Assembly: GCF_016132545.1 (NCBI RefSeq)
Contig: NZ_CP066167.1
Span: forward strand, 3,222,001 to 3,286,000
Source of the DNA: Spongiibacter nanhainus
Lineage (GTDB): Bacteria; Pseudomonadota; Gammaproteobacteria; Pseudomonadales; Spongiibacteraceae
Reading direction: 5' to 3'
DNA: 64,000 bases
Within the stretch, counting starts at the first letter, position 1; the number at the start of each line of letters is the position of its first letter. Below the pieces are notes generated by a model, which was not told where the DNA came from, made no database searches, and was given only the letters and a program-made list of their open reading frames with translations. Of this stretch, positions 31,764-44,351 are shown piece by piece. The translations under genes and the position numbers were made by a program.

Positions 31764-33566
31764 CTATTTTTGCCGATCCGCCAGGTAGGCCCGCCACCCC
31801 CCGTAGTGACTAATGTCAGTGGCGCCCGCCAGCCCCGCAGCTTCGCATATAAAACCGCTGCACTGACTGCCATCCTCTAGCATCACTTTGCCGATACCTA
31901 ATGGTGCAGGGATACCCGCCGTGAAACTTCCAAACTCGGAGGAGGGCAAGGACCAGACCTCCACCTCAATAGCAGTGCCGCCCTCGTTCGCCACTACCAT
32001 CGCGGGGCGAAATGGCGGCCCTCCCGCCAGAGCATAGAGTTTGTACTGCGCAGCCGATAAAGTTTTACTTTTCAGGCGACCACCCCGTTCAGTGAGCTGC
32101 CAGTTTAAGGGCTGCCCCTCTAAATGGGCGCCACACACCACCACGTCTATACGGAGGTCGCCGCCACTGGGCTTGGCAGCCAGGGCTTGATACTCGGCTT
32201 GCTTTGCGCCCAGCGGCAGCTGAAACAGTTGTTGCAGGCGGTTGGCGATAGACAGCAAACGCCGGTCGCTAAAGGCTTCACCCACCAAAGTCAGGCCGAA
32301 GGGAAAACCGGCGTCGGTAAAGCCAGTGGGCACTGCCACCCCAGCCAAATCGAACAAATTCATATAGTTGGTGTAGTGCCCCATATGGCTATTGAGGCGA
32401 ATCGGATCGGCCTGCACCTCGTCAATGCGGTAGGGCCGCGGCGTGGTGGGGGTCAGAAGCGCATCGGCACTGTCCAGTACGGCTTGAGCCTGCTTGCGCA
32501 GCGCTTTGAGGCGGTACTGGGCGCTAAAGGCATCGCGGGCACTGGGAGCGGCTCCGCCACCGATAATGGTCCGGGTGACGTCCAGCAGGGCCTCGGGTTG
32601 TTGATCGATATAGGGCTGGGTAGCCAGGTAGCGTTCCGCCACCCACGGCCCTTCGTAGAGTAGTCTGGCGGCTTCAATAAAGGCGGCCATGTCCACTTCA
32701 ACCAGCTCTATACCGCTATCAGCGATCTGCGCCAGGCTCTGTTGGTAGCACTGGGCATAGCCTTCATGACCAAAGAACTCCAGCTGCTCCTGTTTCATAA
32801 CAGCCAGTTTAAGGGGACCGTTTTGATGGCCGTAATGCCTGGGTGAATTGGCAAAAGGATTGGGGCGGCTGTAGGCATCGGCGGGATCGTCACCTTCGGC
32901 TATGGTAAGCACCGCGTGGGCATCGTCACTGTGCAAAGCAAAAATAGTCATGCAATCCAGTGTGCGACAGGCCGGCATCATGCCGGTGGCTGACAGCAAA
33001 CCGATACTGGGTTTGACTCCCACCAGGTTATTGAGACAGGCTGGCACCCGGCCGGAGCCGGCGGTATCGGTACCCAGGGAAAAGGTCACCAGACCGAGGG
33101 CCACAGACACTGCGGATCCCGAACTGGATCCACCGCTAATCATTTCCGGATCGTGGCTATTTTTACAGGCTCCCCAGTTTGAGCGGGTACCTACCAAGCC
33201 GGTAGCGAACTGATCGAGGTTGGTTTTACCGATAGGAATAGCGCCGGCTTCAATCAGTTTATTCACCACAAAAGCCGACTGCTCGGGTATGTGTCGAGCC
33301 GCTTCGCAGGCTGCTGTCGTTGGTATACCCGCTAAATCGATATTGTCCTTGATAGCAAAGGGCACGCCGTAAAGGGGTAAGCTGTCCGGCGCTACGTCCT
33401 CCAAGTGCTGTAAATAGGGCTCAAGCTCAGCCTGGCTTAGCCGGTGAATCCAGATATTGTAATCACTTGTTTGCTCGCAGCGCTGCTGGATTGTATCGAC
33501 CAGTTGGCGGACAGTTAAACTGCCGTCGCGGTAGCCCGTTTGCAATGCCGTCAGTGTTAAGTTCAT
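31764..33566 (-). CDS. atzF: Allophanate hydrolase
   Basis: Hydrolyses allophanate to ammonia and carbon dioxide, the last step of the pathway encoded here. 600 residues from the ATG at 33566, which overlaps the carboxylase stop (ATGA). The N-terminal amidase-signature domain shows the catalytic Lys in FAIKDNIDLAG and the Ser-cisSer pair in SGGSSSGSAVSVALG with DTAGSGRVPA. The C-terminal domain (about 450-600) is the allophanate-specific extension. An earlier in-frame start at 33743 would lie inside the carboxylase gene. Confidence 0.93.
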   Translation of the reverse strand: MNLTLTALQTGYRDGSLTVRQLVDTIQQRCEQTSDYNIWIHRLSQAELEPYLQHLEDVAPDSLPLYGVPFAIKDNIDLAGIPTTAACEAARHIPEQSAFVVNKLIEAGAIPIGKTNLDQFATGLVGTRSNWGACKNSHDPEMISGGSSSGSAVSVALGLVTFSLGTDTAGSGRVPACLNNLVGVKPSIGLLSATGMMPACRTLDCMTIFALHSDDAHAVLTIAEGDDPADAYSRPNPFANSPRHYGHQNGPLKLAVMKQEQLEFFGHEGYAQCYQQSLAQIADSGIELVEVDMAAFIEAARLLYEGPWVAERYLATQPYIDQQPEALLDVTRTIIGGGAAPSARDAFSAQYRLKALRKQAQAVLDSADALLTPTTPRPYRIDEVQADPIRLNSHMGHYTNYMNLFDLAGVAVPTGFTDAGFPFGLTLVGEAFSDRRLLSIANRLQQLFQLPLGAKQAEYQALAAKPSGGDLRIDVVVCGAHLEGQPLNWQLTERGGRLKSKTLSAAQYKLYALAGGPPFRPAMVVANEGGTAIEVEVWSLPSSEFGSFTAGIPAPLGIGKVMLEDGSQCSGFICEAAGLAGATDISHYGGWRAYLADRQK

Positions 33567-36500
33567 GCTGAGGCCTCCACAATCGCCACCATCTGCCCTG
33601 CCGCCACGCCGGCGCCCTCTCTCAATAAGCAACTTTTCACTCGACCACCCTCCGGGGCGGCAATAGCGATTTCCATCTTCATCGACTCCAGCAATAACAG
33701 CGTTTGTCCGGCCACAACGGTGTCTCCCTCTTTCACCAACCATTTCCAGACGCTACCCGCCACCGAGCTATCCACGGGTAGCTCGCCTTCGGATAACGCC
33801 ACCTCCTCGGTGGACTGAGTCACCTCCGGCGCTTGGTAGTGGAACTGTCCATCGGCGTGCCAGCGCGCCAGCTCCTCGCTAAAGGCCTGCTCCCGACGCT
33901 GGGTGTGCTGGGCAATGGCCTCGCGGTTATCCGCCAGCAAGGCGTCGTAGTCCGCCAATGAAAACTCGCCTTGTTCGATTTTTATATCGTATTGACCCAA
34001 CGGAAAATCCTGGCGAATCTGCAGTAGCTCCTCCTGGCTCACCTCAAAGAATTTCACCTGATCGAAGAAACGCAGTAGGTAAGGTTTACTGAAGGCCGCG
34101 GTGCGGCGGTAGCGATTCCACATTTGCAGGGTACGACCGACGAATTGGTAGCCCCCCGGCCCCTCCATGCCATAGATACACAGGTAAGAGCCGCCGATAC
34201 CGACGGAGTTTTCCGCAGTCCAGGTACGGGCCGGGTTGTACTTGGTGGTCACCAAACGATGGCGGGGGTCCACCGGCGTAGCTACCGGCGCCCCCAGATA
34301 AACGTCGCCCAAGCCCATCACCAGATATGAAGCATCGAAGACAATCTCCTTAACCGCATCGATGCTGTCCAGGCCGTTGATACGACGAATAAACTCCAAG
34401 TTACTGGGGCACCAGGGGGCACCCGGCCGCACCGACTGCTCGTACTTGGCAATGGCCTGGCGGCAGGCTTCATCATCCCAGCTCAAGGGCAGGTACACCG
34501 TCCGGGAGGGAACGGACAACTGATTTAACTGCCCGCACAACGCCCCTTCTATACGTTTAAGCTCGGCCAGTAGCTGAGCCAGGGCCAACTGTTGCGCGTC
34601 GTAGTGAATCTGCAGTGAGCGAATTCCCGGTGTCATTTCTTCAATACCGGGTATCGGGTTTGCCTCCAGGTGCTGCATCAAAGCGTGGGCGCGAAAACGC
34701 AGCCGAATATCTAATTCCAGTGGTCCGTATTCCACCAACAAAAATTGATCGCCGGCGACACGGTAGAGAATCTCGTCACCGTAATCGTCCGCAGACAAGC
34801 GCTGCACGATTGGCGAGGCCAAGGGCTGAATTTGAGTCGGTGTCTCAGCAGGGCCAGACAGCGAAGCGATACACTGCTGCTGGTGCCCTTCGGCAGCCAC
34901 CGCCTCATCCATCGATACCGGAACAAAACGCAATTTATCTCCGGCCCGGAGTTGCCCCAGCTTCCAAAGGTCGGCAGTGATCACCGTGGCCGGGCACACA
35001 AAGCCCCCCAAGGAAGGACCGTCGGGACCCAATATCACTGGCATATCACCGGTAAAATCCACGGTGCCAAACGCATAGGCATTGTCGTGAATATTGCTGG
35101 GGTGCATGCCGGCTTCGCCACCGCTTTTTCGCGCCCATTGTGGCTTGGGACCGATCAGGCGAATGCCGGTGCGGCTGGAGTTGTAGTGCACTTCCCAATC
35201 GGCAGAGAAAAAGGTCTCGATATCCTTGTCGGTAAAAAAGTCCGGCGCGCCGTGGGGGCCGTAAATCACCCTCAGCTGCCATTGCCCACCGATATCCGGC
35301 AGCGGCAAGTCTGAGTCGGGCTTGGTCTGCAACGGTTGGGCAAATTCTGAGATCGCCAAGGCATCACCTACCCGTAGGGCGCGACCGTTGTGACCGCCGA
35401 ACTGGCCCAAAGTAAAGGTGGACTTGGACCCCAGATAATCCGGGCAGTGAATTCCCCCTGCTACTGTAAGATAAGCCCTGGCACCGCTTTGGATACGCCC
35501 CAACCGCAGAGTTTGCCCTGCCTTAACGCAAACGGGCCGCCACAATGCCAGTGGCTCTCCGTCCAGCTCAGCTGGCAAAACCGCACCACCAATCACAATC
35601 TTTGTTTCGCAACTAAACTGCAACGTTGGACCCTGAAGGGTGATTTCCAGCCCCGCCACACCGGGACTATTGCCCAGCAGCTGGTTACAGAGTCGGAAGG
35701 AATAATTGTCAAAGGCCCCCGATGGCGGCACACCAACATCCCAGTAGCCACGGCGTCCTGGATAATCCTGGATAGTGGTTTGTGTACCGGCTTGAAGCAC
35801 ATCGATACGAGCGGGCCGATAGGCCAGATCGTTCAGGTAGCGCGTGGTTAAGGTGCCAGCGCGTAAATGGCTGTCATCCAGCAAACCAACCAGGTAGTCG
35901 AGGTTAGTGACGATGCCATAGATCTCACTCTCATTTAGCGCCTGCTTTACCCCGTCGATAGCACTGTCGCGACTATCTGCGTGGACTATCACCTTGGCCA
36001 GCATGGGGTCGAAAAACGGTGAGACCTCCAGCCCGCTGTCCAGCCAGTGATCAATGCGCAACCGCCCCCTGTCAATGGCCGCTGGGAAATCCACCCGGCT
36101 GAGCAGACCGGCACAGGGCTGAAACTGGCGATATGGATCCTCTGCGTAAACCCGCACCTGTACGGCATGGCCGGAAGGTGACAGCTCGGATTTTAAATTT
36201 GTTAAAGACGGCAGCTCACCTGCCGCCAGTTGCACCATCCATTCCACCAGGTCCACACCCCACACCATTTCGGTAACGCCGTGTTCTACCTGCAAACGGG
36301 TGTTCACCTCGAGAAAGTAAAAGGCCTCGCTGTCTTGGTCATAGATAAACTCGACGGTGCCGGCGTTGCGATACTTCACCGCCGACAGCAAGTCTTCGGC
36401 GCGGCGATGGAGGGTCTGGCGCACTTCATCGGATAAGTTAGGCGCCGGGCTTTCTTCCACCACCTTTTGGTTGCGGCGCTGAGCACTGCAGTCCCGTTCA

Positions 36501-37171
36501 CCCAGGGAGACCACCGTGCCCTCGCCATCGCCAAACACCTGCACCTCGATGTGCCGCGCCCGGGCAACGAACTTTTCTAGAAACACACCGTCATCGGAAA
36601 AATTATTGCTGCCCAGGGTTTTAACCTTGTCGAAGCCCTCACGCAGTTGCGCATCGCTCTCGCACACTTGCATGCCGATACCACCACCGCCAGCGGTGCT
36701 CTTAAGCATTACTGGATAACCGATGCCCTGAGCGGCGGCCAGCGCCTCTTCAACACTGGTCAGCAATCCCGTTCCCGGTGGCAGAGGCACGCCCACCTGC
36801 TCAGCGATTTCCCTGGCCCGGTGTTTTAGACCAAAAGCCTCCATCTGCTCGGGTGTCGGCCCGATAAAAGCGATGCCGGCAGCTTCACAGGTACGGACAA
36901 AATCGGCGTTCTCACTGAGAAAACCGTAACCGGGGTGAATAGCACCGGCGCCAGACGCCTTGGCGATCTCGAGGATTTTCTGACTATTGAGGTAGGAGTC
37001 GGCAGCGCCCCCCTCTCCCAAAGAATAGGCCTCGTCAGCCTGGCGGACATGAAGACTGCGGGCATCGGCTTCGGCGTAAACCGCCACCGCCTGCACGCCG
37101 AGCTTTTGGAGGGTACGGATAATCCGGGTGGCGATGGCACCGCGGTTGGCAATGAGAACTTTGCTAAACAT
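33563..37171 (-). CDS. Biotin-dependent urea/guanidine carboxylase
   Basis: Large single-chain biotin carboxylase, 1202 residues. Domains in order: biotin carboxylase (about 1-450) with ATP-grasp loop KSTAGGGGIGMQ at 157-168; carboxyltransferase of the KipA/AHS2 then KipI/AHS1 type (about 465-1050) with GGEAGMHPSNIHDNAYAFGT and TAENSVGIGGSYLCIYGMEG; and a C-terminal biotinyl domain with the biotinylated Lys in ESMKME at about 1165. By similarity it is a urea carboxylase, but the operon has a guanidine-I riboswitch and carboxyguanidine-deiminase-like genes, so guanidine is the more likely substrate. Its start has AGGAG three bases ahead. Confidence 0.9.
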   Translation of the reverse strand: MFSKVLIANRGAIATRIIRTLQKLGVQAVAVYAEADARSLHVRQADEAYSLGEGGAADSYLNSQKILEIAKASGAGAIHPGYGFLSENADFVRTCEAAGIAFIGPTPEQMEAFGLKHRAREIAEQVGVPLPPGTGLLTSVEEALAAAQGIGYPVMLKSTAGGGGIGMQVCESDAQLREGFDKVKTLGSNNFSDDGVFLEKFVARARHIEVQVFGDGEGTVVSLGERDCSAQRRNQKVVEESPAPNLSDEVRQTLHRRAEDLLSAVKYRNAGTVEFIYDQDSEAFYFLEVNTRLQVEHGVTEMVWGVDLVEWMVQLAAGELPSLTNLKSELSPSGHAVQVRVYAEDPYRQFQPCAGLLSRVDFPAAIDRGRLRIDHWLDSGLEVSPFFDPMLAKVIVHADSRDSAIDGVKQALNESEIYGIVTNLDYLVGLLDDSHLRAGTLTTRYLNDLAYRPARIDVLQAGTQTTIQDYPGRRGYWDVGVPPSGAFDNYSFRLCNQLLGNSPGVAGLEITLQGPTLQFSCETKIVIGGAVLPAELDGEPLALWRPVCVKAGQTLRLGRIQSGARAYLTVAGGIHCPDYLGSKSTFTLGQFGGHNGRALRVGDALAISEFAQPLQTKPDSDLPLPDIGGQWQLRVIYGPHGAPDFFTDKDIETFFSADWEVHYNSSRTGIRLIGPKPQWARKSGGEAGMHPSNIHDNAYAFGTVDFTGDMPVILGPDGPSLGGFVCPATVITADLWKLGQLRAGDKLRFVPVSMDEAVAAEGHQQQCIASLSGPAETPTQIQPLASPIVQRLSADDYGDEILYRVAGDQFLLVEYGPLELDIRLRFRAHALMQHLEANPIPGIEEMTPGIRSLQIHYDAQQLALAQLLAELKRIEGALCGQLNQLSVPSRTVYLPLSWDDEACRQAIAKYEQSVRPGAPWCPSNLEFIRRINGLDSIDAVKEIVFDASYLVMGLGDVYLGAPVATPVDPRHRLVTTKYNPARTWTAENSVGIGGSYLCIYGMEGPGGYQFVGRTLQMWNRYRRTAAFSKPYLLRFFDQVKFFEVSQEELLQIRQDFPLGQYDIKIEQGEFSLADYDALLADNREAIAQHTQRREQAFSEELARWHADGQFHYQAPEVTQSTEEVALSEGELPVDSSVAGSVWKWLVKEGDTVVAGQTLLLLESMKMEIAIAAPEGGRVKSCLLREGAGVAAGQMVAIVEASA

Positions 37172-37181
37172 GATCTCCTGT

Positions 37182-37329
37182 CTGCGGGCCGTCCCGCAGG
37201 GTTTTCATTTTGTCTGTGGTCGTCCACAGGCAGTGTTTAGGTTTTTTTCTACCCTTGTGGGGTGGTGTTTTTTTGGGCGATGCCCTGTTGGGCACTCTGT
37301 CGAGAGTGTATTTGCTATTCCATAGCAAG
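37182..37329 (-). other. Hairpin-rich leader of the carboxylase gene
   Basis: Between the carboxylase start and the structured repeats are several perfect short hairpins: 37182-37199 (seven base pairs, CTGCGGG arm), 37214-37229 (six base pairs, CTGTGG arm, loop TCGT) and 37313-37329 (seven base pairs, TTGCTAT arm). The first ends just before the ribosome binding site, so it could affect translation. No gene is supportable here. Confidence 0.6.
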
Positions 37330-37335
37330 AGTTTC

Positions 37336-37549
37336 GCCCTGCTGGGCGACCTACTTCTTTTTGTGTGAAAAAGAAGTAGGCAAGAAAAGCACACCCCTAT
37401 CGCTCGGCCTTCGGCTACCCTGCGCTTCTCGCCATTCAATGAAAACGCTGCGGAACTCGCCTGACGGCTCAAACAGTCCTCGCTAAAAGCCTTTCATTGA
37501 ATGCCTGCGATGCTCGGCGAGCTCAAAGGGGATTCAAACCCGGTGCCAC
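37336..37549 (+). repeat. Structured repeat element, copy A
   Basis: Conserved blocks separated by stems. Hairpin CGCCC-TGCT-GGGCG (37336-37349); a perfect 12-base-pair stem (37352-37363 with 37369-37380); block AAGAAAAGCACACCC; block TGCGCTTCTCG (37421-37431); a second perfect 12-base-pair stem (37433-37444 with 37492-37503) enclosing GCTGCGGAACTCGC (37447-37460) and CAAACAGTCCTCGC (37470-37483); block CTGCGATGCTC (37505-37515); and GGTGCCAC at 37542-37549. The same blocks occur in copy B in the other orientation. Reading frames across it are artefacts of the repeat. Confidence 0.8.
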
Positions 37550-37578
37550 TAGCGAGAGAAGAACACCATTTTCTCAAT

Positions 37579-37803
37579 GTGGCACCCCCGGGCCCCTTCA
37601 GGGCCGCTGAGCATCGCAGGGACAAAACGGAATAAGCGCGAGGACTGTTTGAGCGAAGCGAGTTCCGCAGCGCCCGTTTTGGCCCGAGAAGCGCAAGGAA
37701 CTGCTGGCGTCTTTTTGCCAGCAGCGGCACTGCAGGGTGTCTTTTCTCTTTGCTTACTTTCTCTTTGGACAAGCAAAGAGAAAGTCAGTCGCCCAGCAGG
37801 GCG
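37579..37803 (-). repeat. Structured repeat element, copy B (inverted)
   Basis: Minus-strand copy of the same element, 29 bases from copy A. Hairpin CGCCC-TGCT-GGGCG (37790-37803), a perfect 12-base-pair stem (37756-37767 with 37774-37785), an extra eight-base-pair hairpin (37701-37708 with 37717-37724), block TGCGCTTCTCG (37685-37695), and a stem of 10 pairs in 11 (37620-37630 with 37674-37684) enclosing the identical GCTGCGGAACTCGC and CAAACAGTCCTCGC. It ends with CTGCGATGCTC and GGTGCCAC. Stem sequences differ from copy A while staying complementary. Confidence 0.8.
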
Positions 37804-37887
37804 AAAACCGTGCCAGCCGTATGCCAATACAAACCCGACAGAGTCAATAAAATCGCTCACCGCCTCCCCCCCCCCAACATTCTGGAA

Positions 37888-38526
37888 TCAATCCCAAACA
37901 ATCATCTCAATTGGCGTTGGATTGTAAGCATTACAAGGATTGTTCAACTGCGGGCAGTTGGACACCAACACCAACACATCCATCAAGGCCTTTAACTCCA
38001 CATACTTACCCGGCGCCGAAATACCGTCGGCAAAGGTCAGTCCCCCTTCTTCGGTAATGGGCACATTCATAAAAAAGTTGATGTTGTGGGTGATGTCCCG
38101 CTTACTGAGCCCGTATTCAGGGTGCTCAGCGATCGCCAGCATCCAACTATCCCGACAGGCATGCATGCAGCGTTTTTCCAGGTCGTAGCGCACGGTGTTG
38201 CTTTCGGTGGCGCAGGCGCCGCCCAGAGTGTCGTGACGACCGCAGGTATCGGCAACGATTTCCAGCATGGGCCGGTTTTCATTGCTGCGCAGTACGCTGC
38301 CGGCGGTGAGGTAGACGTTGCCCTGCTCGCGGATGGTATCGGTGGCGCTATACCGCTCACTGGGATTATCGGCGCTGTAGAACAGGGTATCGGCGGCTTG
38401 GTTGCCTTCCAGATCGAGGATGCGGACGGTCTGTCCGGCACACACTTTTTTCAAGTAGTAGTCGCCAGCGTCGACCACGTCTCTGGCGATGGCATCGCTG
38501 GCGTTTAGTTGGCTTTCTTTAATCAT
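37888..38526 (-). CDS. DUF1989 protein, second urea-carboxylase-associated (carboxyguanidine deiminase subunit)
   Basis: Protein of 212 residues of the DUF1989 family, corresponding to urea-carboxylase-associated protein 2. Seen: [21 protein letters not shown]-type opening, [12 protein letters not shown] with likely metal-binding Cys and His, and [14 protein letters not shown]. Homologous pairs form carboxyguanidine deiminase (CgdAB), which turns carboxyguanidine into allophanate and ammonia. I do not assign which subunit is A or B. It lies two bases after the first DUF1989 gene and is followed by the long repeat-filled gap. Confidence 0.88.
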
Positions 38527-38528
38527 GA

Positions 38529-39254
38529 TCAGGCCCCTAAGTGGTACAAGGCGTTGTTGGCAAAGCCACGACGATTTTCGTCGCAGTGGTTAAGGCAAAT
38601 ATCGTCATCGCTCATGGGCTCGGCTTTGCTCAGAGTGACGCCAATCGGGCAACGGGGGTAAGCGTCAGCTTGCTTCAGGGGATGGGGGCAGGCGTGGATA
38701 AGCACCAGCGTGTCCATTTCAAAGCGCAGGGTAACGCTGCTTCCCGGCTTGCTGGCACTGTCGTCCAGTGCCATATTGCCATCGGCGTCGGTGACCACCT
38801 TGCTAAACCAGTTTATGTTGGCCGCCATATCGGCGCCGCTGAGGCCATACTTGGCCAGTTCCACCAGAAAGGCGTCGTAGCCGTTTTGATGCCAGTCGTT
38901 GCGATCGCGCTGGTAATCTCGCCGCCCCCATTTGCCGGCCACATTCTCGGCATTGGCATTGCCGCAAACGGTATCGTGCCAACCGCTATCATCGGCAGTG
39001 ACCGAGGCGAATATCCGCCCCATATCCGAATACAGGCAGTGGCCCCGGGTGAGTTTGAAGGTATGCTGGCATTTCAGTGTATCCGGGGCGTTGTAGCGCT
39101 CCAGTGGATTGCGGGGGTTGTAGAACAGCATCCCGGCATTGCCTGAGCCAGTAAGGTCGGTCAGGGTAAGCTGCGTTCCCCGGCGCAACTCCAGGGACCA
39201 GTGCCCGCCCGGAGCGATTTCAGTGTGATAAGTTTCCATGTGATCACTAACCAT
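38529..39254 (-). CDS. DUF1989 protein, first urea-carboxylase-associated (carboxyguanidine deiminase subunit)
   Basis: Protein of 241 residues, partner of the next gene and the same family (urea-carboxylase-associated protein 1). Parallel motifs: [50 protein letters not shown], and a C-terminal cysteine region near [13 protein letters not shown]. The start at 39254 has GGAGG eight bases ahead and overlaps the ABC ATPase gene by eight bases, so transport and catabolism are translationally linked. Predicted role: subunit of carboxyguanidine deiminase. Confidence 0.88.
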
Positions 39255-40029
39255 GTGTCAGTTCCTCCGTCGATGTCATCGACAGACTTTCATCTATTTC
39301 TTTTAACAACTCGTCGCCGGTTTCCCCCACCGGCAAGTCGTAGGTAATGCCGGCGCCATAGGCATTGGGGCTCTGCGGATCGACTCTGAGTTTGTCAAAT
39401 ACCCAAAGCCGTGTTCCCAAGTGGAAGCCTTCTTTAAGGTCGTGGGTCACCATAAACACCGTGAGTTTGTGCTTGCGCCACAGATCCAGTACCAAGTCGT
39501 GCATATCGGCACGGATGCCGGGATCCAGGGCACCAAAGGGCTCGTCCAGCAACAAGATGCGGGGTTTGAGAATCAAGGCCTGGGCAATGGCCAGACGCTG
39601 GCGCATCCCGCCGGAAAGTTCATCTGGGTAGCGGTCGCGCATGTGACTGAGGCCAACAATATCCAACAGTGCGGCGGCCTCATCGCGGGCGGCTTTCTTT
39701 GCGGCGCCGAACAGAAAGCCAAGGCGGGTTTTCTCGAAAGCTCTGGCGATGGCGACATTTTCCAACACAGTAAGATGGGGAAATACCGAATACTGCTGGA
39801 ATACCACACCGCGCTCGGCATCGGGCTCATCCGGGATCGGCTTGCCATCGATTTTTATCTCACCCTGGCTGGGAGACTCGGTGCCCAGCAACATGCGCAG
39901 AAAGGTGCTTTTACCGCAACCGGACGCTCCCACCAGGGTAATAAACTCGCCTTCCTTCACAGTGGCAGAGATATTTTCCAGGATCACGTTATCGCCGTAA
40001 CGCTTCCAGATATGCTCGATCTCAATCAT
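39247..40029 (-). CDS. ABC transporter ATP-binding protein (guanidine/urea operon)
   Basis: ATPase of 260 residues of the nitrate/taurine (TauB/SsuB) type that powers the importer. Walker A GASGCGKST (about 36-44), signature LSGGMRQRLAIAQAL, Walker B ILLLDEPFGALD and the H-loop MVTHDLKEGFHLG are intact. It starts within the stop codon of the permease gene. The genes around it indicate uptake of guanidine or a related nitrogen compound. Confidence 0.92.
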   Translation of the reverse strand: MIEIEHIWKRYGDNVILENISATVKEGEFITLVGASGCGKSTFLRMLLGTESPSQGEIKIDGKPIPDEPDAERGVVFQQYSVFPHLTVLENVAIARAFEKTRLGFLFGAAKKAARDEAAALLDIVGLSHMRDRYPDELSGGMRQRLAIAQALILKPRILLLDEPFGALDPGIRADMHDLVLDLWRKHKLTVFMVTHDLKEGFHLGTRLWVFDKLRVDPQSPNAYGAGITYDLPVGETGDELLKEIDESLSMTSTEELTHG

Positions 40030-40850
40030 TACTTGCCCTCCTGCTGCGCGTGCCAGGGGAAGGCAAAACGGCTGATTTTGACCAGCGCATAGTCGATAAC
40101 AAAGGCCAGCAGTGTTATCCAGGCCACATAAGGCAGAATAACGTCCATCGACAGATAACGTCGTACCAGGAAGACTCGGTAACCGAGACCATCGGTGGAG
40201 GCGATGGCCTCCGCCGCAATCAGGAACAGCCAGGCGGTGCCCAGCGACAACCTAACGGCATCGATGAGACGCGGCATCAATTGGGGGATCAGCACTCGCA
40301 CAATGATTTGTCCGGAGTTGGCGCCCAGGGTCTGGGCCTTGACCAATTGTTCCCGGGGGATTTCCAGCGCCCGCTTCTGAATATCACGGGCGATAAAAGG
40401 CGTGACACCTATGGCGATCAAAGCCACTTTCGACAACTCGCCCAGACCAAAAACAATAAACAGAATCGGCAGCAGTGCCATGGGTGGCACCAGGGAGATC
40501 ACTGTAAGCAGCGGAGAAAATGTCGCGCCCACCAATGGCAGTGCGCCAGTCATTAACCCAAACGCCATCCCTAAAGACGCAGCGATTAACATGCCGATTC
40601 CCAGCCGTTGCAGGCTGCTGCCAGTATCTTGCCAAAACAGGTATTCGCCAGTGCGCTTGCTGGGCTCAAAGGCCAGGCGATACATGGCGTCACCCATTTG
40701 CTGAAAGCTAGGCAGTAGCTTGTCGTAACTGTTTTCCGCCAGCCGCGCTTCAGATGCTGAAATATACAGCATCAACAGCAGGGCAAAGGGCAGCAGAGCC
40801 AAACCGATGCGCCACACGCGGTTGGGGGACTGGTTAATCAGACGTTTCAT
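40029..40850 (-). CDS. ABC transporter permease (guanidine/urea operon)
   Basis: Membrane subunit of 273 residues from the ATG at 40850 (MKRLINQSPNRVWRIGL). About six hydrophobic segments and the cytoplasmic EAA-type coupling loop (REQLVKAQTLGANSGQIIVRVLIPQLMPRL) place it in the BPD_transp_1 family of the TauC/SsuC type. An earlier start at 40934 would run into the intergenic palindromic repeat and is not supported. Confidence 0.9.
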   Translation of the reverse strand: MKRLINQSPNRVWRIGLALLPFALLLMLYISASEARLAENSYDKLLPSFQQMGDAMYRLAFEPSKRTGEYLFWQDTGSSLQRLGIGMLIAASLGMAFGLMTGALPLVGATFSPLLTVISLVPPMALLPILFIVFGLGELSKVALIAIGVTPFIARDIQKRALEIPREQLVKAQTLGANSGQIIVRVLIPQLMPRLIDAVRLSLGTAWLFLIAAEAIASTDGLGYRVFLVRRYLSMDVILPYVAWITLLAFVIDYALVKISRFAFPWHAQQEGK

Positions 40851-40925
40851 AGAATCGCCGCTGTTGTTAAGAATGGAGGGCGTACCGCGTTGAGCCTGTA
40901 AGCCATGGTGTTGCCGTCGATATTC

Positions 40926-40990
40926 GGCGGACAAGTGATGCGATGTCCGCCCTACCGAACCGTAGGGCGGACATGGTTTTCATGTCCGCC
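40926..40990. repeat. Palindromic repeat cluster, locus 2
   Basis: Two adjacent hairpins of the same family as at 29168-29296: 40926-40951 (arms GGCGGACA / TGTCCGCC) and 40966-40990 (arms GGCGGACAT / ATGTCCGCC), joined by a short palindrome-like CCTACCG..CGTAGG. The cluster sits inside the operon between the substrate-binding protein and permease genes, where an RNA hairpin could stabilise the upstream message. Confidence 0.85.
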
Positions 40991-41008
40991 GCCACCTTCC
41001 CGCAAGCC

Positions 41009-42049
41009 TTACAATTCGCCGTCGGCGGCCATCTGCATATAGCTGGGATCAAAGCGGAACTTGATATTGCCGGGGTTACCGAACACACCCGCCGGGGTTT
41101 CAATACCGATAAAGCCCGCATCCGGCGCACCTTCACCCAACAAGCCGTGGGCAAAAGAGAACTCCGCCACATTCTTCATAGTCTCTTTGAGCTGGGCACT
41201 GTTGGTGAATTTCACTGCGTCGGCGGGATCGTAAAACATCTCAGTGCTGGCCAATTGCGCTTCATAGCCAGCCAAATCAGTGCCGGAAGCCACACCCATT
41301 GCGGTGCGGGCAGCGATGCCTTTTTTGCCGCTGTCGCTCATGGTGGCCATGATCTCATACCAGGCGCCGGTCAGGGCCTTACCCAGTTTGGGATTGGCTT
41401 TCAGCGTCTCGGTGTTGATCACCAACAGGTCGATGATTTCACCGGGGATATCGGAGGAATCGAACACCTTGTTGGCGCCGGGCATTTCCAGGATTTCACT
41501 GAGCAGAGGATTCCAGGTCACCACTGAGGTCACACCAGCGGTGGGGAATACCGCCACCATATCGGCGTCAGAGGTATTCACTACTTTCACATCGGCCTCG
41601 CTCATGCCCACACTTTCCAAGCCACGAGCCAGTAAGTAGTGGGACACGCTCAGTTCAACCAGATTAACGGTTTGGCCTTTGATGTCTTTAAGGTCATCGT
41701 AGGCTTTGAGGACCACGCCGTCATTGCCGTTGGAAAAGTCCCCAACCACCAATGCGGTACTATCAACCCCACCCGCAGCGGGAATGGTCAATGCATCCAT
41801 GTTGGTCATGGTGCAGGCGTCAAAGCCACCAGCCGTGTACTGGTTAATGGATTCGATATAGTCGTTGATTTGTACGACGTCGATCTCAATGCCGTATTTT
41901 TTAGCCCACTTGTCGACGATTTTTTGCTCGGCGCCGTAGCCCCAGGGCATCCAACCGACATAGATGGACCAACAGACTTTGAAGCTGTCTGCAGCATGAG
42001 TAAATGACGAAACTGTCAGGGTGAGTAGTAAAGCGGCCAATCGCTTCAT
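41009..42049 (-). CDS. ABC transporter substrate-binding protein (guanidine/urea operon)
   Basis: Periplasmic binding protein of 346 residues, the first gene of the operon and directly controlled by the riboswitch leader. Signal peptide MKRLAALLLTLTVSSFTHA, then a NitT/TauT-type binding fold beginning FKVCWSIYVGWMPWGYG. It matches the group annotated as putative urea ABC transporter binding proteins in urea-carboxylase operons. With the riboswitch upstream, guanidine is the likelier ligand. GGAGG lies before the ATG. Confidence 0.9.
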   Translation of the reverse strand: MKRLAALLLTLTVSSFTHAADSFKVCWSIYVGWMPWGYGAEQKIVDKWAKKYGIEIDVVQINDYIESINQYTAGGFDACTMTNMDALTIPAAGGVDSTALVVGDFSNGNDGVVLKAYDDLKDIKGQTVNLVELSVSHYLLARGLESVGMSEADVKVVNTSDADMVAVFPTAGVTSVVTWNPLLSEILEMPGANKVFDSSDIPGEIIDLLVINTETLKANPKLGKALTGAWYEIMATMSDSGKKGIAARTAMGVASGTDLAGYEAQLASTEMFYDPADAVKFTNSAQLKETMKNVAEFSFAHGLLGEGAPDAGFIGIETPAGVFGNPGNIKFRFDPSYMQMAADGEL

Positions 42050-42113
42050 CGCGAACCTCCAGCGGTTTTGTTACGCGGTTTATGGAGCACTCCTGGTGAT
42101 AAATCACCGATCG

Positions 42114-42322
42114 TCTCCCGGGCTTTTGTCCCGCCGTGTAACCTTCCATCTGAACGTTGGCCTCACTGGCCCGCTAACTTGCGCTAGCTCGCTGATGTAA
42201 GCTGCCACCTCACTCTGTTTCTGAGAGGGGCGAAGGTCGAAAGCTCTCGGACCAGACATCGCATCGTGTTGCTTGCACTCGTATTGCTTTTACTCGTGCA
42301 ACTTATGCGACCGGAACCCTAG
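42114..42322 (-). ncRNA. Guanidine-I (ykkC) riboswitch
   Basis: Read on the minus strand, the leader of the transporter gene contains the three most conserved ykkC blocks in the right order: CTAGGGTTCCGG (42311-42322), TGGTCCGAGAGC and GGGACAAAAGCCCGGGAGA (42114-42132). A hairpin follows the first block and a variable insert of about 90 bases sits before the last, so the RNA is longer than a minimal aptamer. No T-rich terminator follows; downstream are small hairpins and then the ribosome binding site, so control of translation is possible. Guanidine-I riboswitches switch on guanidine export or degradation genes, which fits the operon. Confidence 0.92.
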
Positions 42323-42422
42323 CCTTCCATTTTTTGATTCGGCCAGGCTACCAAAGCCAAACTCGAATCACCGAATTGTATTGTGCGTCCTGAATCACCA
42401 GGAGTGCGGACAATAGCACTCA

Positions 42423-42538
42423 TACAGATTCTATGCCAATCCCCGCTAATGGCGAGAATTGCCCTTTCTTCACCCACCCGGACAGGTAATCGCCCTTAAA
42501 ATGCACCAATCGATCACCAAGCGCTCTTTTTTGGTGCA
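42423..42538 (-). promoter_or_regulatory. Possible sigma-54-like promoter and inverted repeat upstream of the riboswitch
   Basis: On the minus strand 42423-42439 reads TTGGCATAGAATCTGTA, similar to a sigma-54 promoter in the -24 half but with GT instead of GC in the -12 half. About 65-100 bases further upstream is a perfect 8-base inverted repeat, TGCACCAA at 42502 and TTGGTGCA at 42531, whose halves resemble NtrC half-sites though with the wrong spacing. Nitrogen control of a guanidine operon would make sense, but this is weak. Confidence 0.25.
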
Positions 42539-42593
42539 GGGATAGAAGTGCACTTGAGCTACCGCCACCGTGGCAGATTTGCCACGGCCCTGT

Positions 42594-42640
42594 AAGCTGG
42601 AGTCAGAAAGCTGGGGTCAGGAAGCTGGAGTCAGTAAGCT
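42594..42640 (+). repeat. 14-base tandem repeat upstream of phoA
   Basis: Three 14-base units, AAGCTGGAGTCAGA, AAGCTGGGGTCAGG and AAGCTGGAGTCAGT, followed by a partial AAGCT. They lie about 95 bases before the phoA start. Purpose unknown. Confidence 0.8.
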
Positions 42641-42734
42641 ACCACTACGTTACAGGCTTGATAGACCGATACCGGCTGTTGTTATTTACAGCGTTTGTTA
42701 TTTGCTGCATTCGTCCTGACTAAAGGGAACACTC

Positions 42735-44351
42735 ATGCTCTACTGGCGCCACCTGCTTATCACCTTTCTGTGCTGTCTTGCCGTTGGCGGCTGTCAAAAA
42801 TCACCGAAGGCTTCGAAACCGCCCCCTAGCTACCTTCAGGCCCCCATCGTGCAGCACACTCGACAAAATCCCTGGTACACAGAGGCAGAGAAACGCCTTG
42901 AGCAGCACCCCGCTGCACACCGCGAAAAGCGCGGCGGCGCCAGGAATATCGTGCTTTTTGTGGGTGACGGCATGGGGATTTCCACCCTCACCGCCGCGCG
43001 GATTTTCCAGGGGCAGCAGCTGGGAAACTCCGGCGAGGAAAACCGCCTGAGCTTTGAGGACTTCCCCTATACCGGGTTAATCAAGACCTACAACGTCAAC
43101 GCCCAAACCCCGGACTCCGCCGGCACCATGAGCGCCATTGTCTCCGGAGTTAAAACCGACGCCGGGGTGCTGGCTGTGGACGAACACGTTGAGCGCGGCG
43201 ACTGCGCCAGTCAGTCAGGCAGGGAAGTGATCAGTGCTCTGGAGCTGGCGGAACTGGCAGGCCAGGCCACAGGTATTGTCACCACAGCACGGATCACCCA
43301 TGCCACCCCCGCCGCCACCTACGCCAAATCGGTTGATCGCAATTGGGAGAATGACAGCGCGCTGAGCGATGCAGCGCGACAGAGCGGCTGCGAGGACATT
43401 GCCATGCAGCTGGTCAATTTTCAGGAAAGGTTACGTAGCCGCTACCCCGGCGCAAGCGGCGATGGGATCGACGTGATTATGGGGGGCGGACGACGCAATT
43501 TTCTGCCAGCTCATCCCGCATTTAACTCTGTCGACACGCCAGAGGGCGAGGTCGAAGGCTTACGATCAGACGGCTATGACTTAACCGCCCAGTGGCAACA
43601 GAGCTACCCCAAGGGTCGCTATGTAATCGATGCGGAAGGTTTGGCAACAGTAGACCCCGGCACGGAGAAATTATTGGGCTTATTTGAGCCTTCACATATG
43701 CACTACGAAGCGGACCGGTCCAATGACCTGGCCGGGGAGCCGTCCCTGGCCGATATGACTGAAAAGGCAATTAGCCTGCTACGCAATAAACCAGAGGGCT
43801 TCTTTCTGATGGTTGAGGCGGGGCGTATTGACCACGCCCACCACGCCGGTAATGCCTACAACGCCCTCAGCGATACGGTGGCACTCAGCGACGCGGTGGC
43901 CAGGGCGCTGGCCATGACCGACGAGAAAGACACCTTAATTCTGGTGACCGCGGACCACAGTCATGTCTTCACCATGGCGGGCTACCCCAAGCGTGGCAAC
44001 CCCATACTGGGCAAGGTGGTGGCCCCCAACAGCGAGCAGCCGACATTGGCGGCGGACGGGCAACCTTACACCACTCTGGGCTATGCCAATGGCGCGGGCT
44101 TCGACGCTAGCGATCGTACTGATGGCAGTCGCAGCAGCGAGATTCAAGCTGGTAGATACGACTTGTCCGAGGTGGATACCCAAGCGCCGGGCTTTCATCA
44201 GGAAGCCTTGGTACCGCTGAATTCTGAAACCCACGGTGGCGAGGACGTAGCCTTGTTTGCCCGCGGCCCCGGAGCGGCCCTGGCCAGCGGCAACCACGAG
44301 CAGAACATGATCTTTCACATTATGAATTATGCGGCGGGGTGGTTGCCGTAG
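42735..44351 (+). CDS. phoA: Alkaline phosphatase
   Basis: Phosphomonoesterase of 538 residues. The signal has a lipobox (CLAVGGC), so it is probably a lipoprotein. The zinc-binding start NIVLFVGDGMGISTLTAARI and the nucleophile Ser in TPDSAGTMSAIVSGVKTDAG are intact, as are GRIDHAHHAGNAYNAL and VTADHSHVFTMAGY metal-ligand regions. No obvious Pho box is seen in front. The stop codon TAG is provided by the first bases of the palindromic repeat cluster that follows, so the C-terminus may have been set by repeat insertion. Confidence 0.93.
   Translation: MLYWRHLLITFLCCLAVGGCQKSPKASKPPPSYLQAPIVQHTRQNPWYTEAEKRLEQHPAAHREKRGGARNIVLFVGDGMGISTLTAARIFQGQQLGNSGEENRLSFEDFPYTGLIKTYNVNAQTPDSAGTMSAIVSGVKTDAGVLAVDEHVERGDCASQSGREVISALELAELAGQATGIVTTARITHATPAATYAKSVDRNWENDSALSDAARQSGCEDIAMQLVNFQERLRSRYPGASGDGIDVIMGGGRRNFLPAHPAFNSVDTPEGEVEGLRSDGYDLTAQWQQSYPKGRYVIDAEGLATVDPGTEKLLGLFEPSHMHYEADRSNDLAGEPSLADMTEKAISLLRNKPEGFFLMVEAGRIDHAHHAGNAYNALSDTVALSDAVARALAMTDEKDTLILVTADHSHVFTMAGYPKRGNPILGKVVAPNSEQPTLAADGQPYTTLGYANGAGFDASDRTDGSRSSEIQAGRYDLSEVDTQAPGFHQEALVPLNSETHGGEDVALFARGPGAALASGNHEQNMIFHIMNYAAGWLP

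Follow-up and report, generated by a model that had tools for sequence, protein, structure and literature searches.

Results

Organization of the operon

The DNA analyzed (the window) is a 64,000-nucleotide (nt) stretch of contig NZ_CP066167.1 of Spongiibacter nanhainus, in which seven genes, i.e. an ATP-binding cassette (ABC) importer trio, two DUF1989 genes, a carboxylase gene and the gene for the allophanate hydrolase AtzF, lie on the minus strand 3' of a guanidine-I riboswitch leader. As judged from sequence, the cluster most likely serves the import and breakdown of guanidine for nitrogen. A first-pass annotation of the window had placed the importer, both DUF1989 proteins, the carboxylase and AtzF on the strand of the leader, and the family matches bear this out. 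The substrate-binding protein (41009..42049) scores 561 bits against TIGR03427 (cut-off 334), a family labeled 'putative urea ABC transporter', and probably belongs to a guanidine importer; the permease (40029..40934), the true start of which is uncertain, and the ATPase (39247..40029) match PF00528 and PF00005, respectively. The DUF1989 proteins are of the UAAP1 type (38529..39254; TIGR03425, 315 bits, cut-off 206) and the UAAP2 type (37888..38526; TIGR03424, 336 bits, cut-off 285), and are putative subunits of a carboxyguanidine deiminase. This class is assigned here from two DUF1989 subunits beside a carboxylase, each above its NCBI cut-off, the published criterion, in the available text of PMC11410670, being the place of a protein in the DUF1989-family tree.

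The putative guanidine carboxylase (33563..37171) carries the family label 'urea carboxylase' (TIGR02712, 1835 bits, cut-off 1304) and has a biotin motif, SMKM, at residue 1163; AtzF (31764..33566; TIGR02713, 758 bits, cut-off 511) comprises amidase and AH_C domains. The AtzF start was taken as 33566, which overlaps the carboxylase stop, in preference to that of the long open reading frame at 31764-33743, which probably carries a false N-terminal extension. The junctions between consecutive genes are, in order, a 74-nt gap (before the permease, with its uncertain start), a 1-nt overlap, an 8-nt overlap (ATPase/first DUF1989 gene), a 2-nt gap, a 716-nt gap and a 4-nt overlap (carboxylase/AtzF); overlaps of 4-8 bases, ascribed to most of the genes in the first-pass annotation, are thus limited to two of the six junctions.

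For comparison, 17 further genomes of the same genus were combined with that of S. nanhainus (G000) to give a genus set of 18, and a wider scan set comprised 57 genomes. A full-length carboxylase is present in 17 of the 18 genus genomes, the exception being G009; the same 17 genomes have guanidine-I (in S. nanhainus itself as pieces below cut-off), and the order of the seven genes is the same in each of their operons.

Carboxylase signature residues

In the available text of PMC11410670, a guanidine carboxylase has Asp at the position of Kluyveromyces lactis residue 1584, and is separated from urea carboxylases by Asp at position 1330; a distinction between Asp in guanidine carboxylases and Asn in urea carboxylases is also made in the accessible part of PMC12186494. 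The S. nanhainus carboxylase is homologous over its full length to K. lactis urea carboxylase (3VA7, 5I8I; 1129 bits), which, by contrast with the separate S. nanhainus gene product, is part of a longer urea amidolyase (5I8I). It has the Asp/Asp signature of the guanidine enzymes, in that Asp705 faces K. lactis Asn1330, as counted on the printed alignment numbering, and Asp956 faces Asp1584 in the alignment.

Among 80 loci selected by carboxylase similarity (the best 80 of 112), the first site is Asp in 50 and Asn in 30, and the second is Asp in 78 and unread in two. An upstream guanidine-riboswitch-like motif, i.e. one that is guanidine-I-like by a short, loose pattern or guanidine-II-like by a hairpin rule, accompanies 41/50 Asp loci compared with 1/30 Asn loci, Fisher values overstating the strength of this association, since the Asn loci are mostly from Achromobacter and Bordetella and the 80 loci are thus not independent. 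The sole motif-positive Asn locus (L067) is without aptamer context. The nearest named carboxylase records among these 80 are from Zhongshania, a marine genus, at 75-76% identity; a literature search combining Zhongshania with guanidine gave a single paper, the subject of which is a blue-light-sensing bacterium.

The guanidine-I leader

The Rfam guanidine-I (ykkC) model RF00442 matches 42113..42333 on the minus strand with 76.2 bits (cut-off 63, E 8.7e-12), confirming the leader that had been proposed at 42114-42322; this match, and that to guanidine-II described below, were repeated when the operon alone was scanned. At 221 nt the aptamer is longer than the other genus matches listed (127-162 nt), and has two long peripheral loops, in which 40 and 85 positions are omitted from the Rfam alignment. 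These loops are probably the reason why the whole-genome scan gave the same aptamer as two pieces below cut-off (38.3 and 35.4 bits), these being the only guanidine-I matches among the 150 of 209 first-look candidates that were scored in the S. nanhainus genome.

The expression platform extends from the aptamer to the start codon (42050..42112) and no U-run terminator was found in it; nor did a scan of 41950-42740, which, as for all terminator and promoter searches of the leader and gap, was crude, find a terminator-like site on the operon strand. The leader thus lacks an evident platform of the terminator type, which is usual, not defining, for guanidine-I. In all 17 genus leaders the platform is 61-64 nt long, with at most five T in any eight bases. 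Two promoter-like sites lie upstream of the aptamer, at 42455-42410, compared with 0.6 expected for the whole region.

The usual modes of action, according to the part of PMC12186494 available, are via a terminator for guanidine-I and on translation for guanidine-II. In the S. nanhainus leader, and in those of several relatives, the Shine-Dalgarno sequence lies partly within a small predicted hairpin (AACC..GGUU); the predicted fold differs in others, e.g. G008 and G007. We infer that the guanidine-I leader controls translation, with no terminator being involved; Rho-dependent control is a possible alternative. In several relatives, including L166-L174, an ATG following AGGAG was seen by eye upstream of, and in frame with, the substrate-binding gene; the idea of a leader peptide was dropped, because the S. 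nanhainus leader has ATA at the position of the ATG.

The internal guanidine-II element

Immediately before the carboxylase gene there is a second aptamer, a guanidine-II (mini-ykkC) riboswitch at 37184..37231 on the minus strand (RF01068, 40.2 bits, cut-off 32), which ends 12 nt before the start codon. It has the features that define the class, i.e. two ACGR-loop hairpins before a gene and a score above gathering, the loops being ACGA and ACGG and the stems having 6 and 7 pairs; no other match was found among the 150 of 554 first-look candidates scored in the genome. The hairpin rule, which requires stems of at least 4 pairs, so that pairs at positions 1-4 do not count as separate evidence, finds two ACGR-loop hairpins just 5' of the carboxylase in all 17 genus operons. 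When 5100 random 123-base pieces were taken from these 17 operon regions, without excluding those that cover the real site, 41 contained a hairpin pair of comparable strength (stem sum at least 10, first stem at least 5, second stem at least 4), and on this comparison a chance origin of the element was rejected. Hairpins were also recorded at 16 further sites, at loci preselected as positive (16 of the 21 positives of the 80-locus scan, the other five being Zhongshania records), so that only the 17 genus sites give an unbiased count.

The first stem (P1) is CTGTGG/CCACAG in S. nanhainus compared with CAGTGG/CCACTG in the 16 other genus members, one pair having changed on both sides with the stem kept; P2 likewise differs among genus members on both of its sides, the inner pairs being retained. 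In the 57-genome scan guanidine-II was reported in 13 genomes. Matches above cut-off and away from the guanidine operon were seen at G002:C2:95430-95472 (L134), G006:C2:322622-322666 (L132) and G015:C3:320494-320540 (L139).

A palindromic repeat within the operon

Most of the 716-nt gap that separates the carboxylase gene from the second DUF1989 gene is filled by a palindromic repeat element of ~560 bp (37279..37844), the inverted ends of which, by eye, resemble GGGCACTCTGTCG. It is one of six near-complete copies in the genome, the five others (L085-L089) being of 87-93% identity, and pieces matching it are present in 23 of the 57 genomes, S. nanhainus counted, including all 18 of the genus. 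The gap before the carboxylase is 1167 nt in G011 and 866 nt in G014, compared with 75-114 nt in the other 14 genus operons. Related repeats occupy the same gap in G011 and G014 (L164, L165), the G011 insert being rearranged, with tandem repeats of another kind (by eye), and all three long-gap species keep the guanidine-II hairpins. In a tree of the seven joined operon proteins, the drawing of which was rooted by choice on G001, G006, G012 and G013, a branch supported at 99.6/100 separates the long-gap species from the others; the grouping is weak in the carboxylase tree (58/47). One old shared insertion is the simplest, not the only, reading of the long gaps. On the operon strand, neither a terminator-like nor a sigma-70-like promoter site was found between 37100 and 38000; the opposite strand of this region has six terminator-like sites and one promoter-like site. 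Outside the operon, a divergent alkaline phosphatase gene (PF00245, 42735-44351) adjoins it.

Discussion

The genes, the signature residues and both aptamers, together with their conservation, are direct observations, and the locus is very probably a guanidine nitrogen-assimilation operon under two guanidine riboswitches. In the proposed mechanism, binding of guanidine to the guanidine-I leader would lead to more of the importer and deiminase subunits, and its binding to the internal guanidine-II hairpins would open the ribosome site of the carboxylase, the stop codon of which is overlapped by the AtzF start. The carboxylase would then convert guanidine, bicarbonate and ATP to carboxyguanidine, which the DUF1989 pair would deiminate to allophanate, from which AtzF would release ammonia and CO2. 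The identity of the ligand, the switching, the enzyme activities and import can be inferred from published relatives. The original papers on the pathway are reportedly those of Nelson (2017), Schneider (2020) and Sinn (2021).

The NCBI labels of TIGR02712 ('urea carboxylase') and TIGR03427 point instead to a urea amidolyase pathway, in which the carboxylase would use urea and the importer would take it up. However, residue 705 is Asp, not Asn, the operon bears two guanidine aptamers, and it encodes deiminase subunits, each above its cut-off, that a urea route does not need. Furthermore, the genome, which has one TIGR02712 protein above cut-off, has a separate urease alpha match elsewhere, so that a urea carboxylase would be redundant. 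The residue, riboswitch and urease evidence led us to reject the urea pathway, which we consider extremely unlikely, and the same evidence supports the proposal of the first-pass annotation that the pathway is one for guanidine. That earlier picture was, however, incomplete, in that the second riboswitch and the 716-nt gap were overlooked, and both the pathway and its layout were already published. It is also very unlikely that a substituted guanidine, e.g. methylguanidine, is the main substrate, with free guanidine as an intermediate. The Vreelandella guanidine-II switch, as described in the available text of PMC12508155, does not discriminate between guanidine and methylguanidine, which is consistent with such a role; however, the 4-nt overlap of the carboxylase and AtzF genes leaves no space between them for MgdH/MgdL (dioxygenase/lyase) genes, no search for these having been made elsewhere in the genome.

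Several observations weigh against assignment of the locus to guanidine assimilation under two riboswitches. The substrate-binding protein has only remote relatives of solved structure, i.e. taurine and sulphonate binders, and 9/50 Asp loci are without an upstream motif, four of these having no more than ~3 kb of upstream sequence available. At the Rfam gathering score guanidine-II is found in none of six close relatives scanned, compared with guanidine-I in all six; by the hairpin rule, five of the six have the hairpins, L013 being without them. In addition, the 57-genome scan, for which stricter filters were used, places guanidine-II in the operon gap of only 3/17 genus operons (S. nanhainus, G007 and G011), the count of 17/17 resting on the hairpin rule.

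Two details are unexplained, i.e. the repeat within the operon and the guanidine-I leader without an evident terminator. It may be that the repeat has split the operon, such that expression of the carboxylase and AtzF depends on a separate promoter rather than on the guanidine-I transcript, a possibility that is compatible with a guanidine pathway. The filling of most of a 716-nt gap by a palindromic repeat, where 14/17 genus operons have only 75-114 nt, is consistent with such a split; the operon strand around the repeat, however, showed no terminator-like or sigma-70-like site in the crude scan, and we regard the split as unlikely, if worth bearing in mind. A more speculative and distinctly improbable proposal is that, in this branch of the genus, the repeat is now part of control. 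It would divide the message, through RNA processing or a new start, into one part for import and deimination and another for carboxylation and hydrolysis; the carboxylase would be governed solely or mainly by guanidine-II, and the guanidine-I leader would act on translation without a terminator.

With regard to known systems, guanidine-I at the head of an operon and guanidine-II before the carboxylase have already been published for enterobacteria (PMC12186494) and Vreelandella (PMC12508155), and the S. nanhainus operon is a new example of this arrangement. According to the accessible text of PMC12508155, the layout in Vreelandella boliviensis has been examined experimentally (in-line probing, growth with guanidine, proteomics), and its gca operon shares with that of S. 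nanhainus guanidine-I before all the genes, ABC genes, cgdA/B, guanidine-II between cgdB and gca, and atzF downstream. By contrast, gca and atzF of V. boliviensis are separated by mgdH and mgdL, where the S. nanhainus genes overlap by 4 nt, and the gap 5' of the S. nanhainus carboxylase gene is largely occupied by the repeat. Raoultella terrigena, Erwinia rhapontici and Klebsiella michiganensis, which are of a different lineage from S. nanhainus, similarly have an importer and deiminase with guanidine-I, and a downstream carboxylase and AtzF with guanidine-II, in the part of PMC12186494 available. Guanidine riboswitches elsewhere often control an SMR-type exporter, and Raoultella and Klebsiella can use the Gdx exporter (same source); by contrast, a search of the S. 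nanhainus genome for the SMR family (PF00893), which was positive in 8 of 14 control genomes, gave no match.

The S. nanhainus operon is thus a further clear case of the guanidine nitrogen pathway, one that is conserved across its genus, and is another indication that operons of this kind are mislabeled where their products are named 'urea carboxylase' and 'urea transporter'. The species bearing the repeat offer a natural test of whether the second half of the operon can be left to an internal guanidine-II element alone.

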